NCBI GenBank assembly: GCA_030706405.1
Contig: JAUZOO010000008.1
Location: forward strand, 1 to 64,000
Length of the DNA: 64,000 bases
From: Bacteroidota bacterium
Lineage (GTDB): Bacteria > Bacteroidota > Bacteroidia > Bacteroidales > JAAUTT01
Direction of reading: 5' to 3'
The position numbers and the translations under genes were made by a program. Under the pieces are notes generated by a model, which was not told the DNA's origin, did no database searches, and saw only the letters and a list, made by a program, of their open reading frames with translations. Below are positions 44,423 to 47,171 of this stretch, in pieces (position 1 is the stretch's first letter; every line of letters starts with the position of its first letter).

Positions 44423-44560
44423 TAATACGATTTTTGGAGATTTGGTAATAATAGTGCCGGCTAAAAATCAAAAAACATGCCGTAATGATTGTCTTTTATA
44501 AATTATCCGGAGAAATATCCGAAACAATAACTTTATTACTTTTGATGAAAACCAGATTTC

Positions 44561-45175
44561 ATGCAAATTATAGACCTTACACAAACCATTGTCCACGGGA
44601 TGCAGGTGTACCCCGGCGACGAACCGCCTTCGCTTGAACAAATCAATTCGCTCGAAAAGGATACGTTTACCAATCACCGTTTTTCAACGGGAATGCATGC
44701 AGGCACGCACATCGACGGGCCGTGGCACATGGTTGGCGACAAACGTTTTATTGCCGATTCGCCGCTGGATTATTTTATTGGGAAAGCCAGTGTTATTGAC
44801 ATCCGAAATACTTCTGTATTTAGGGATGCAAGTCTGGTAAAAGAGAAAGCCTCCGGGTGTTCCATCGTACTTTTTTATACCGGTATGGGCGAGAAGTTCG
44901 GCACACCACAGTATTTAGCCGATTATCCCCTCGTTGGGGAACAGATTGCCGAGGTTTGCGTGGAAATGGGTATTAAACTTTTGGGAATCGATACCCTCTC
45001 GCCCGATGTTGCCCCTCACGAAACCCATAAAATACTCCTTGGCAATGGGGTGCTGATTGCCGAAAACCTGTGCAACCTGCATCTTCTGCTCGATAAAAAC
45101 GACATTGAAGTGATTGCCCTTCCCCTGAAAATAGCCGCTGATAGTGCTCCGGCACGGATTATTGCCCGGGTGTGA
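44561..45175 (+). CDS. Cyclase-family (kynurenine formamidase-like) hydrolase
   Basis: 204 residues. The metal motif HAGTHIDGPWH gives H46, H50, D52 and H56, typical of cyclase-family zinc hydrolases such as arylformamidase and isatin hydrolase. LLGIDTLSPDV and a terminal IIARV also match. Substrate unknown. Its transcript ends at a GGGGCTG hairpin directly before the palindrome array. Confidence 0.87.
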   Translation: MQIIDLTQTIVHGMQVYPGDEPPSLEQINSLEKDTFTNHRFSTGMHAGTHIDGPWHMVGDKRFIADSPLDYFIGKASVIDIRNTSVFRDASLVKEKASGCSIVLFYTGMGEKFGTPQYLADYPLVGEQIAEVCVEMGIKLLGIDTLSPDVAPHETHKILLGNGVLIAENLCNLHLLLDKNDIEVIALPLKIAADSAPARIIARV

Positions 45176-45226
45176 GGGAAGATTTAGGTAATTAGTACAG
45201 AGTACTGAGTACCAAGACAACAATGA

Positions 45227-45258
45227 GGGGCTGTATCCGAAAGGAGCAGCCCCTTTTT
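45227..45258 (+). terminator. Intrinsic terminator before the palindrome array
   Basis: GGGGCTG and CAGCCCC flank a 13-base loop and are followed by five T. It ends the hydrolase gene 9 bases before the first array unit. Confidence 0.8.
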
Positions 45259-45267
45259 CGTTACACC

Positions 45268-45584
45268 CGCGAACGTACATTCGTGTCACCCACGAACGCA
45301 CGTTCGTGTCACTCGCGAACGCACGTGTGGGACACTCACACACGTATTAGTGAGGCACCCTCACTCGTATTAGTGAGGCACCCTCACTCGTGCGTGTGAG
45401 ACATCCTCACTCGTGCGTGTGAGACGCCATCACCCAGACATTATTGACACCCTATACCGAGCGTTATAGACACCCTATACCGAGCGTTATAGACACCTTA
45501 TACCGTACGGTAGTGACACCCTATACCGGGCAATAGCGACAGGCACTAACGTACGTTAGCGTTACCCACTAACGCTCGTTAGTG
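45268..45584. repeat. Array of 14 palindromic units with a 23-base period
   Basis: Fourteen units of an 18-base imperfect palindrome plus a 5-base spacer, most often of the form NCACC, span 317 bases with no indel. Palindromes: CACGAACGCACGTTCGTG (unit 2), CTCACTCGTATTAGTGAG (5), CTCACTCGTGCGTGTGAG (6, 7), CTATACCGAGCGTTATAG (9, 10), CACTAACGCTCGTTAGTG (14), for example. The stem arms change from one family to the next along the array while staying complementary. The arms also pair across the spacers. It is not a CRISPR, as there are no unique spacers. The rest of the gap, 45585-45837, holds nothing clear. Confidence 0.85.
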
Positions 45585-45837
45585 CCCGACGCTAAAAAAT
45601 GGAGGGAAAAAACTCCCGGTAAGCATTATTGATTATTTTTGGGATTAACAAAAACTAACTGTTAATGCCACATCGGTTATATGCGGATTTTAACTACCCA
45701 AACTTTAGGATGTTTTTCCCTTCGGATAAGGAGGAAATAAATGCAATAAAATGAGAGGGGCGTATATACAGGTGTTACGGGCAAACCTAATCATCAAATA
45801 ACGACAAACTGAAACTTAATATTTACAAATTAATAAA

Positions 45838-46404
45838 ATGAAAAAGGAAAAAAAAATTGATTTTCTTATTGCATCAATAAATGATATCCAATCAACTACA
45901 CGAGCTTTTGATAACAAAATCATTGCTATTATGGTAGTAATCATTTTTCCTCTATCACAATTGAAATTACTAATTTCAATATATACAAAAATAATTTCTG
46001 ATTATCAATTGATTGGGATTATTGGATTAAGCCTTTTTATTATCACTTGGCTATTGAGTTTAATATTTTCTTTCTTATGTATTTTGTCAATTGATAATCC
46101 ATCCAATAAAATAAACAATGATTGTAATGCGAAAGGAATATTTTATGGTACAGGATTATTTAGAATAGACTTTAAGTATTTGTTATTCCGAAAAAAAATA
46201 TCATCACAAAAGAGTATAAGTGCTTATGCTAACAAATTTAAATTCAAAGAGCTTGAGAAGGAATTAGTTTATGAACAAATGAAACTAGCTTTTATTCGAG
46301 ATGTAAAATCAAAAAGACAAAAAACAGCATTAATATCGGCATTCTGTAGTATTATGATAGGTATTTTAAGTTGGATTTTTGTACTACTAAAGTATAATAT
46401 TTAA
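45838..46404 (+). CDS. Pycsar-like transmembrane effector (PycTM/DUF5706-type)
   Basis: 188 residues with three predicted membrane helices: about 27-49, 58-83 and 163-184. FDNKIIAIMVVIIF before the first helix pair, the loop between them and the helical SISAYANKFKFKELEKELVYEQMKLAFIRDV fit the PycTM pattern as I know it. The gene is visibly A+T-richer than most neighbours, and only 5 bases separate it from the cyclase. Family knowledge: PycTM effectors sense cUMP or cCMP and damage the membrane to stop phage. The order (effector first) differs from most described systems. Confidence 0.75.
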   Translation: MKKEKKIDFLIASINDIQSTTRAFDNKIIAIMVVIIFPLSQLKLLISIYTKIISDYQLIGIIGLSLFIITWLLSLIFSFLCILSIDNPSNKINNDCNAKGIFYGTGLFRIDFKYLLFRKKISSQKSISAYANKFKFKELEKELVYEQMKLAFIRDVKSKRQKTALISAFCSIMIGILSWIFVLLKYNI

Positions 46405-46409
46405 TAATT

Positions 46410-47171
46410 ATGAATTTAGAATTGAACTCAAAAATTGAAAACGAAGTCAATAAAGCTCTTGATAATGCTGAAAATATTTGGAATGAAGTTGGTGACCAGT
46501 TTGTTCTTAAAAAAGGTGTAAGAATGTTTTCAGAAGGAGCAAAAGTTCCTTCCCAAATACCAGGTCACAAAATTTTGACAGAAGGGAAACCAGAGGTTGG
46601 TAATTTTATTGCCTTAGTACTTGATATACGTAATTCGACAGATCATCTTTTAGTCGCAGCTAAAGCAAAGGCTACTCAATTAGAACGTGTTTTATATGAA
46701 ACAACAGCAGTAAACGCAGCAGGTGCAGTAATTATTGAACACTATAACGGTGGCTTAACAGAGTATTTAGGCGATGGATTCTTAGCATTATTTAAAGTTG
46801 AGGATGAAAAAAATTCTAAAACAATCATATATAGTGCGCATGATGCTGCAAAATACTGTCTAAATGAGGGGCTAAAAATTGTAAATGATATAATTTATAA
46901 CCGATATCAATTACCAAAATTATCTATGGGTATTGGCTTAGCCTATAGTAAAGCGATTGTCACTATTGTTGGCATTAATGACAATTTACATCCAAAAGCT
47001 ATCGGTGAGTGCGTTTTTCGGGCATCCAAGTTGGCTGGTGGGCATAATGAAATCCATATTGATGAACACCTAAAATATTTATGGCCCAAATCAGATGATG
47101 GTCAACTAAGATTTATTTACACAAACAGATTTCAAAAAATTAAGGGCTATCTAATAAGTAGGAAGAATTAA
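46410..47171 (+). CDS. Class III nucleotidyl cyclase (probable PycC)
   Basis: 253 residues with an adenylate/guanylate cyclase catalytic domain (about 65-250). Metal aspartates are D72 in LVLDIRNST and D122 in YLGDGFLALF; LSMGIGLAYSKAIVTIVG and KAIGECVFRASKLAGG complete the core. It directly follows the three-TM gene. Such stand-alone cyclases beside a membrane effector are the signature of Pycsar, in which PycC makes cUMP or cCMP on infection. A plain cAMP/cGMP cyclase is possible, but no other signalling genes are nearby. Confidence 0.8.
   Translation: MNLELNSKIENEVNKALDNAENIWNEVGDQFVLKKGVRMFSEGAKVPSQIPGHKILTEGKPEVGNFIALVLDIRNSTDHLLVAAKAKATQLERVLYETTAVNAAGAVIIEHYNGGLTEYLGDGFLALFKVEDEKNSKTIIYSAHDAAKYCLNEGLKIVNDIIYNRYQLPKLSMGIGLAYSKAIVTIVGINDNLHPKAIGECVFRASKLAGGHNEIHIDEHLKYLWPKSDDGQLRFIYTNRFQKIKGYLISRKN

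Follow-up and report, generated by a model that had tools for sequence, protein, structure and literature searches.

Introduction

The gene of the RAYT partner adjoins some copies of REP elements. REP and BIME elements with RAYT carry GTAG/CGTC palindromes according to the accessible part of PMC3733652, and they are like the arrays described here in being short extragenic palindromes with genome-specific stems. The present family differs from REP/RAYT in its tandem 23-nt arrays and in its candidate partner, which is an HU-type protein and not a Y1 transposase. The other system, BrickBuilt of Porphyromonas gingivalis (Klein et al. 2015, PMC4596501), is in the accessible part of its description a spacerless 23-nt tandem unit, intergenic and multicopy, with long predicted stem-loops, and the present array is like it in these respects. 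However, the units of BrickBuilt differ by 0–11% within one element in that description, whereas the stems found here are locus- and genome-specific. The BrickBuilt unit sequence also differs from that of the present array, and the BrickBuilt leader, tail and IS5-type terminal repeats were not found here. The same part of the description mentions no link to genes with HU-DNA_bdg and DUF4469 domains (HU-DUF4469 genes), unlike the present arrays. BrickBuilt and REP/RAYT are the closest known systems, and each of them fails a defining feature.

The array studied here lies in a 64,000-nt stretch of a Bacteroidales genome, the whole of which is called the window. A sequence-only reading had described it as a strictly periodic array of 14 covarying palindromes resembling no named bacterial element. 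The last point was nearly right, but BrickBuilt has the same 23-nt period and the same two-dyad build.

Anatomy of the window array

The window array (45268–45584, no strand assigned) is a 23-nt palindromic minisatellite of 317 nt without any indel, with a GC content of 0.52. Period and dyad analysis agreed with the strict periodicity claimed for it. The identity at lag 23 is 0.738, compared with 0.15–0.36 at lags 21, 22, 24 and 25. Two dyad centres per period, one at the loop and one at the linker, stand out among the 46 possible ones. Their Watson-Crick fractions are 0.654 and 0.610, while the other 44 centres have a mean of 0.236 and a maximum of 0.397. The sequence-only reading had listed stems within units and stems across spacers. 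Both registers are present, but in any tandem repeat whose period holds one dyad, another necessarily lies half a period off, so they are a single property and not two. Some of the 14 units are not palindromes: the unit at 45429 has 0 of 8 within-unit pairs and those at 45337 and 45521 have 4 of 8 Watson-Crick pairs. The 5–8 of 8 pairs given for the across-spacer register hold for the 13 pairings once G-T is counted; with Watson-Crick pairs only, the range is 5–7.

When recut round the 5-nt loop, the array consists of 15 hairpins (45255–45597, + strand), each with an 8-bp stem, a 5-nt loop and a 2-nt linker. In this cut, the left end is T-rich and the right end is A-rich. The loops are mostly of the ACACC/GCACC/ACATC type. 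The arm families along the array are GAACG, CACACG/CTCACTCG, TATACCG and TAACG, and both arms covary, so the four families with arms changing together are indeed present. A CRISPR array was rejected, because the variable parts are complementary arms, without unique spacers between constant repeats. The final two units (45544–45584, + strand) have the stem CACTAACG/CGTTAGTG, a stem family common to the array next to an HU-DUF4469 gene on contig C8 of the same genome. An inverted-repeat scan found that the array ends in a fold-back, a long imperfect inverted repeat with 15 of 20 pairs (45556–45595, no strand). The corresponding ends have 19 of 20 pairs in the copy on contig C6 and 16 of 20 in the C8 copy. 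As the best inverted repeat of that size elsewhere in the window has 17 of 19 pairs, only the C6 fold-back end is exceptional by itself.

The array is one of a repeat family seen chiefly in Bacteroidales

The searches detected three arrays in the window genome, namely the window array (contig C20), one on C6 and one on C8. The C6 array has 10 hairpins with the arm families in the same order as in the window array (73% identity over 212 nt), and its downstream flank is partly similar. The C8 array has four hairpins and lies behind an HU-DUF4469 gene, with the cas9 3′ end 52 nt away. By reading of this locus (L009, 3071–6310), cas1 and cas2-like ORFs are located past the HU gene.

BLASTN over 119 genomes (the window genome and its relatives) detected no array outside the window genome. 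Since the arms drift too fast for sequence search, covariance models were used. Model R1 matched 6 of 393 genomes of the order, with the window genome counted and one match (G043) not array-like, and it detected arrays in two further families of the order. Model R2 matched 7 of the 393, again with the window genome counted and one match (G271) without a clear triplet. Model R3, built from 31 triplets, matched 2 of 395 genomes of the phylum, which are the window genome and one from another family in the class, whose array was seen by eye. The prevalence of the arrays is low. Among 16 chosen genomes, 15 were matched by R3, including one Treponema MAG, and often many times per genome. A two-unit pattern was scanned for in a collection with a single genome for each of 84,980 species. 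Of the 34 loci obtained, 15 have a Bacteroidales or Bacteroidia title. The carriers include termite-gut Tannerella MAGs, Parabacteroides distasonis, another Parabacteroides, Dysgonamonadaceae, Prevotellaceae, Bacteroidia MS495-6 and others. The other 19 loci look mostly like chance, except for a Treponema MAG with 23-nt repeats and weaker pairing. In the Treponema MAG G402 (L118, L214, L215), 17 dispersed matches to the array model have period 23, with weaker arm pairing.

The members of this family, mainly from Bacteroidales, have an 8-bp variable stem, a CG base, a 5-nt loop (often RYRYC) and a 2-nt linker. In an informal comparison with the GTAG/CGTC tags of REP elements, most stems had CG at the foot, and the dinucleotide linker after it was variable. 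The stems are largely genome-specific, and the loop and base are common across genomes. The window array has the period of 23, the CG-based 8-bp variable stems and the RYRYC-type loop. Homologous arrays in related genomes, which the sequence-only reading had proposed to look for, recur with the 23-nt period and with arm covariation in an alignment of 31 triplets (A3). In this alignment 85.9% of the cells are paired and double-change cells number 210 versus 78 in shuffles, figures that describe rather than test the pairing because the rows were selected for it. Neither random arm drift nor a collapse of the period in relatives, as expected of a chance low-complexity expansion, was seen in the homologous arrays. 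The description as covarying palindromes that are not due to chance is thus borne out, whereas the ideas of an RNA and of a link to defence that came with it are not.

For a survey of array loci, 54 further stretches were chosen by us from covariance-model matches and added to six earlier loci. Two of these 60 loci had no array and two had two arrays, giving 60 arrays, or 58 excluding Treponema. The array finder is biased to loop-centred pairing and RYRYC loops. The arrays are multicopy and mostly intergenic, often begin just past a stop codon, and several are near-identical within one MAG. For 47 arrays both neighbouring genes were called by simple ORF calls; the neighbours are tandem in 27 cases, convergent in 12 and divergent in 8, two Treponema arrays being among the divergent ones. 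An array of P. distasonis (L162, 2583–3638) lies within a DUF4922 ORF, which stays open and in frame, and it adds 18–21 residues in an alignment with eight homologues. At another locus (L106, 2130–4163), the array apparently lies between nifE-like and nifN-like parts; one ORF reads through it and matches Oxidored_nitro twice.

Some arrays lie directly behind HU-DUF4469 genes

In the ORF search of the 60 loci, an HU-DUF4469 gene adjoins 12 of the 60 arrays, in 10 genomes, and the array is on the 3′ side of the gene in 12 of 12. Several of the carriers are bacteria of guts, termite guts included. The gap between gene and array is −55 to +35 nt, where a negative value means that the array call runs into the gene. 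The stretches had been picked by array match, and the HU gene had already been noticed beside two arrays (L009 and L087, the latter identical to L213). Two further HU-linked arrays are at L089 and at L161, where the array is known by model match only. For 48 of the 60 arrays no HU-DUF4469 neighbour was found, some of these loci being cut by contig ends. The window array is not beside such a gene, whereas the C8 copy of the same genome is. HU-DNA_bdg plus DUF4469 is the commonest Pfam pair beside the arrays (7 of 85 flanking proteins), followed by Radical_SAM with 3. In 1.23 Mb (duplicates counted), the HU-DUF4469 protein was found only at array loci (including L089 and L161), at their duplicates and at loci retrieved for the protein.

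An independent set of 8 HU-DUF4469 genes was obtained by protein search of plasmid and phage collections. Records of a single P. distasonis strain supplied 5 of them, a Treponema saccharophilum plasmid 1 and phage-labelled scaffolds 2. In the 3′ 120 nt, lag 23 was the top one of lags 12–40 for 6 of the 8 genes (each p 0.0025 against shuffles). The dyad p was ≤0.0075 in 5 of these 6 loci and 0.065 in the Treponema one. The two exceptions are L264, with a period of 24, and L268, with no 3′ array. On the 5′ side, with gene starts approximate on two unannotated scaffolds, lag 23 was on top in 1 of 8 (L268, 0.40, without dyad), and L263 had a dyad p of 0.02. As a control, lag 23 behind the stop codon was ranked over the annotated genes of two 50-kb stretches, and the HU-DUF4469 gene came 1st of 33 in P. 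distasonis and 1st of 32 in T. saccharophilum. One other P. distasonis gene also had lag 23 on top, but weaker (0.41 versus 0.55 for the HU-DUF4469 gene). An array directly 3′ of HU-DUF4469 genes is found far above chance.

The HU-linked arrays span Bacteroidales and Treponema, and the HU-DUF4469 proteins are often only 26–35% identical. Five HU-DUF4469 paralogues of P. distasonis have different stems behind each. In one genome (G221, contig C14; L213, 2174–2930), the HU-DUF4469 gene is broken into two reading frames and the array is still behind it. The HU loci of G221 and of genome G301 may be paralogues, so array replacement at one site is not claimed.

Two single-protein scans for HU-DUF4469 in viral contigs gave no relative, and a literature search gave nothing resembling the HU-array link among the matches listed (in one case the best 20 of 949). 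PDB 4fmr is an uncharacterised protein with HU-DNA_bdg and DUF4469 domains. TDE_2259 of Treponema denticola has the same two Pfam domains and, judged by locus number, adjoins the leucine-rich-repeat (LRR) gene lrrA/bspA (TDE_2258) in the accessible part of PMC12724145. No array is mentioned for the HU-DUF4469 proteins in that part of the article, unlike the HU loci described here. The HU-DUF4469 gene of T. saccharophilum is followed by one small ORF and then an LRR gene (L266, 3732–5150). HU-DUF4469 genes are thus close to LRR genes in two Treponema species, the other site being TDE_2258/2259, and in one Bacteroidales genome (L208, 1010–2632; LRR by reading); LRR_4 was matched in 2 of the 85 flanking proteins.

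Likeness of dispersed and HU-adjacent arrays within genomes

The similarity between HU-adjacent and dispersed arrays was 0.725 within genomes (n = 30) and 0.495 between genomes (n = 474; permutation p 0.0002), a difference to which base composition, shared ancestry within genomes and the array-finding procedure may contribute. The own genome ranked 1st of 12 in 7 of 9 cases (L184 among them tied with another genome) and 3rd in the other two. The best match of the C8 array is the window array (0.84), compared with 0.69 for the best other genome. A dispersed array is thus more like the HU-adjacent array found in the same genome than like those of other genomes.

Arm similarity within arrays

Arm identity was followed in 13 diverged arrays, defined by our own cut-off (six or more units and a distance-6 identity below 0.72), with all arms written in one orientation. 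From distance 1 to 8 it was.742,.720,.622,.604,.544,.494,.430 and.395, a smooth fall whatever the orientation. The core arm identity between arrays is.312. In the diverged arrays, the opposite arm (.757 across the loop,.730 across the linker) was as alike as the next direct copy (.720); the bias of the finder concerns loop pairing, not linker pairing. When all 46 arrays of at least 5 units were taken, direct copies were more alike (.837) than opposite arms (.785 and.783), and the loop pair was ahead of the direct pair in 14 arrays, tied in 2 and behind in 30. Recent or plain tandem duplication would give this result, and the ladder is seen in the diverged arrays picked by the cut-off. Among the loops, 7 are the reverse complement of RCAYC and none is its pure reverse or pure complement; of the looser RYRYC loops, 8 are reverse complemented, 3 only reversed and none only complemented.

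Both the arm ladder and the flipped loops are as expected from fold-back template switching combined with slippage. In the accessible part of PMC8794818, such switching is reported to create, maintain and repair hairpin stems, and in that of PMC8604942 to homogenise arms and invert spacers. The likeness to template-switch and quasipalindrome mutation lies in arm homogenisation, spacer inversion and inverted copies. The cases in the accessible parts of these two articles are single inverted repeats, whereas here long arrays have neighbouring arms in a graded ladder. The loop and base motifs are conserved across families, which points to a sequence constraint beyond template switching alone.

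Explanations of the array

Building on the observed anatomy, family, HU link and stem matching, we lean on balance to reading the window array as one dispersed copy from a family of palindromic minisatellites linked to HU-DUF4469 genes, maintained at the DNA level and probably protein-bound. The arms would stay complementary through a DNA process, and not through selection on an RNA. In this process, fold-back template switching in replication would copy one arm from its neighbour, and tandem slippage would add to it. The HU-DUF4469 protein probably binds the array, and would do so as DNA in a bent, hairpin or cruciform form. Such binding would account for structure and spacing being retained while the sequence drifts, and the protein-binding scaffold suggested by the earlier reading fits the HU link. 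The HU-linked array would be the home copy, from which dispersed arrays such as the window array may have been seeded. Target duplications were not found, nor was a transposase partner, which was sought only as Y1 transposase.

A more specific version is offered tentatively, and we regard it as possible rather than probable. The HU-DUF4469 protein and the array would form a matched pair, in which every paralogue has a stem family of its own to recognise, with the array as its DNA docking and propagation site and the dispersed arrays as non-autonomous copies. If this is true, an HU-fold protein would run, without any known transposase, a repeat system of a selfish or nucleoid-organising kind in Bacteroidota and Spirochaetota. 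The HU link itself points to a previously unrecognised protein-plus-repeat pair. It gives an uncharacterised HU-type family a candidate DNA target, and the question of which protein keeps up a repeat family becomes directly testable.

The alternative that fares best, although we consider it rather improbable, is a neutral palindromic minisatellite produced by slippage and template switching alone, in which the HU link reflects a shared mobile neighbourhood or an insertion hot spot and no binding. The mutational signatures (equal registers, arm ladder, flipped loops and fold-back ends), the arrays behind many unrelated genes and the in-frame array in the DUF4922 gene of P. distasonis all suit it. 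It is harder to reconcile with an HU link that holds over both Bacteroidales and Treponema with such distant proteins, with the array being 3′ of the gene in every one of the 12 cases, and with a loop, base and period common across families.

A structured RNA is unlikely. According to this idea, which the sequence-only reading had raised as an RNA of linked hairpins, the array is transcribed as a 3′ UTR stabiliser, attenuator or decoy and its arms are under RNA selection. The predicted fold is very stable, with energy z values for 45225–45600, a stretch that takes in the adjacent terminator-like hairpin, of −11.4 (RNA, + strand), −8.5 (RNA, − strand) and −8.6 (DNA). The arm covariation is also strong, and the frequent start right after a stop codon would suit a transcribed element. 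However, RNA selection should clearly favour G-T mispairs, and on the loop strand of 376 units G-T (185) is barely above A-C (160), with 99 and 96 in interior units, which counts against the RNA reading. Read on the sense strand of the flanking tandem genes, A-C mispairs (85) outnumber G-T (48), which weighs against the RNA reading and also against the DNA-level one. The loop strand has a random orientation to flanking tandem genes (13 same, 14 opposite). As units within one array are not independent, these mispair and strand counts carry no formal p. Loop-centred and linker-centred pairing are equal (0.779 versus 0.778; better in 26 and 25 arrays, with 2 ties), yet an RNA could use only one register at a time. 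The covariance models of Rfam 15 gave only two sub-threshold matches in 44500–46500 (E 1.5 and 2.1) and no family. Covarying palindromic repeats are usually taken for RNA structure; here neither a strand nor a wobble signature accompanies the covariation, and some loops are flipped, so that the arrays are a candidate for a natural record of template switching by fold-back.

It is very improbable that the array is the internal minisatellite of an IS-derived, BrickBuilt-type MITE spread by an IS5-family transposase. The accessible part of PMC4596501 does describe a 23-nt unit that lies between genes, in multiple copies, in one species of Bacteroidales, and the BrickBuilt consensus, as computed here, has two dyads 11.5 nt apart. 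But this consensus, AGAYCATARTATCCTCTCRTRTG, has 0 matches in the window at ≤3 mismatches. The IS5-type ends, GAGACCTTTGCA, have 3 matches in 64 kb at 2 mismatches versus 4.0 expected, none of them flanking the array, and no common leader and tail were seen by eye in 60 array flanks. Least credible of all are REP elements moved by RAYT, a Y1 transposase, because, although the arrays are likewise short, extragenic, genome-specific and multicopy palindromes, Y1_Tnp was not found in the window genome (99.7% complete) or in 9 more of 15 array genomes and occurs in 21 of 25 genomes without a detected array versus 5 of the 15 with one, and RAYT was rejected as mobiliser, being contradicted in the window genome unless the gene was lost.

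Neighbourhood of the window array

The gene upstream of the array (44561–45175, + strand) belongs by profile match to a putative cyclase family, PF04199. Behind it, a terminator-like hairpin with a T-run (45227–45258, + strand) abuts the start of the array; it was recognised from the fold and is absent from the terminator-scan list. The array itself was rejected as an intrinsic terminator, because its T-rich left and A-rich right ends are the wrong way round and the terminator scan found none inside it. In a search of the genus, the matches outside the window genome (G001 and G004) were confined to the query's ApbE end; the cyclase gene and the array gap had no match there, which left no empty site to read.

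Downstream, a leader of about 100 nt (45627–45727, + strand) is followed by a PycTM-like membrane effector (45838–46404, + strand; PycTM E 3e-9) and a PycC-like nucleotide cyclase (46410–47171, + strand; PycC E 6e-9). The candidate defence operon seen by the sequence-only reading is therefore present as a Pycsar-type pair. PADLOC on 85 of the 96 ORFs flanking arrays matched 30 families (25 of them listed), PycTM among them, each in one protein. The 11 ORFs omitted from the scan include the cas9 adjoining the C8 array. Single strong matches were DpdF (1e-121) and mad3 (3e-49), and PADLOC gave no match behind the C6 array. A recurrent association of the arrays with defence was rejected, as no PADLOC family was found in more than one of the 85 flanking proteins. 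The Pycsar operon is AT-rich (GC 0.23–0.34 versus 0.36–0.48 around it) and, because of this and because no defence family recurs beside the arrays, it is probably an incidental neighbour.

The leader has further copies in the window genome, on contig C17 (L239, 1501–1602; 69% identity over 102 nt) and, in part, in the flank of the C6 array (L008, 3451–3488; 84% over 38 nt). It precedes accessory genes, which are the Pycsar genes on C20, a TIR-domain gene (PF10137) on C17 and, with part of the leader only, the gene that follows the C6 array. Its core TAnnTTTG is taken by us to be a promoter-like motif, and the leader is possibly a shared promoter or a cassette boundary of defence genes. Around the TIR gene on C17 (L246, 3704–6759), a 61-nt repeat (CCCTGTTAACCCGAGGCTATAAAATA...) occurs four times at intervals of about 0.2–1.8 kb, and the same stretch also carries short imperfect repeats of 21–22 nt.
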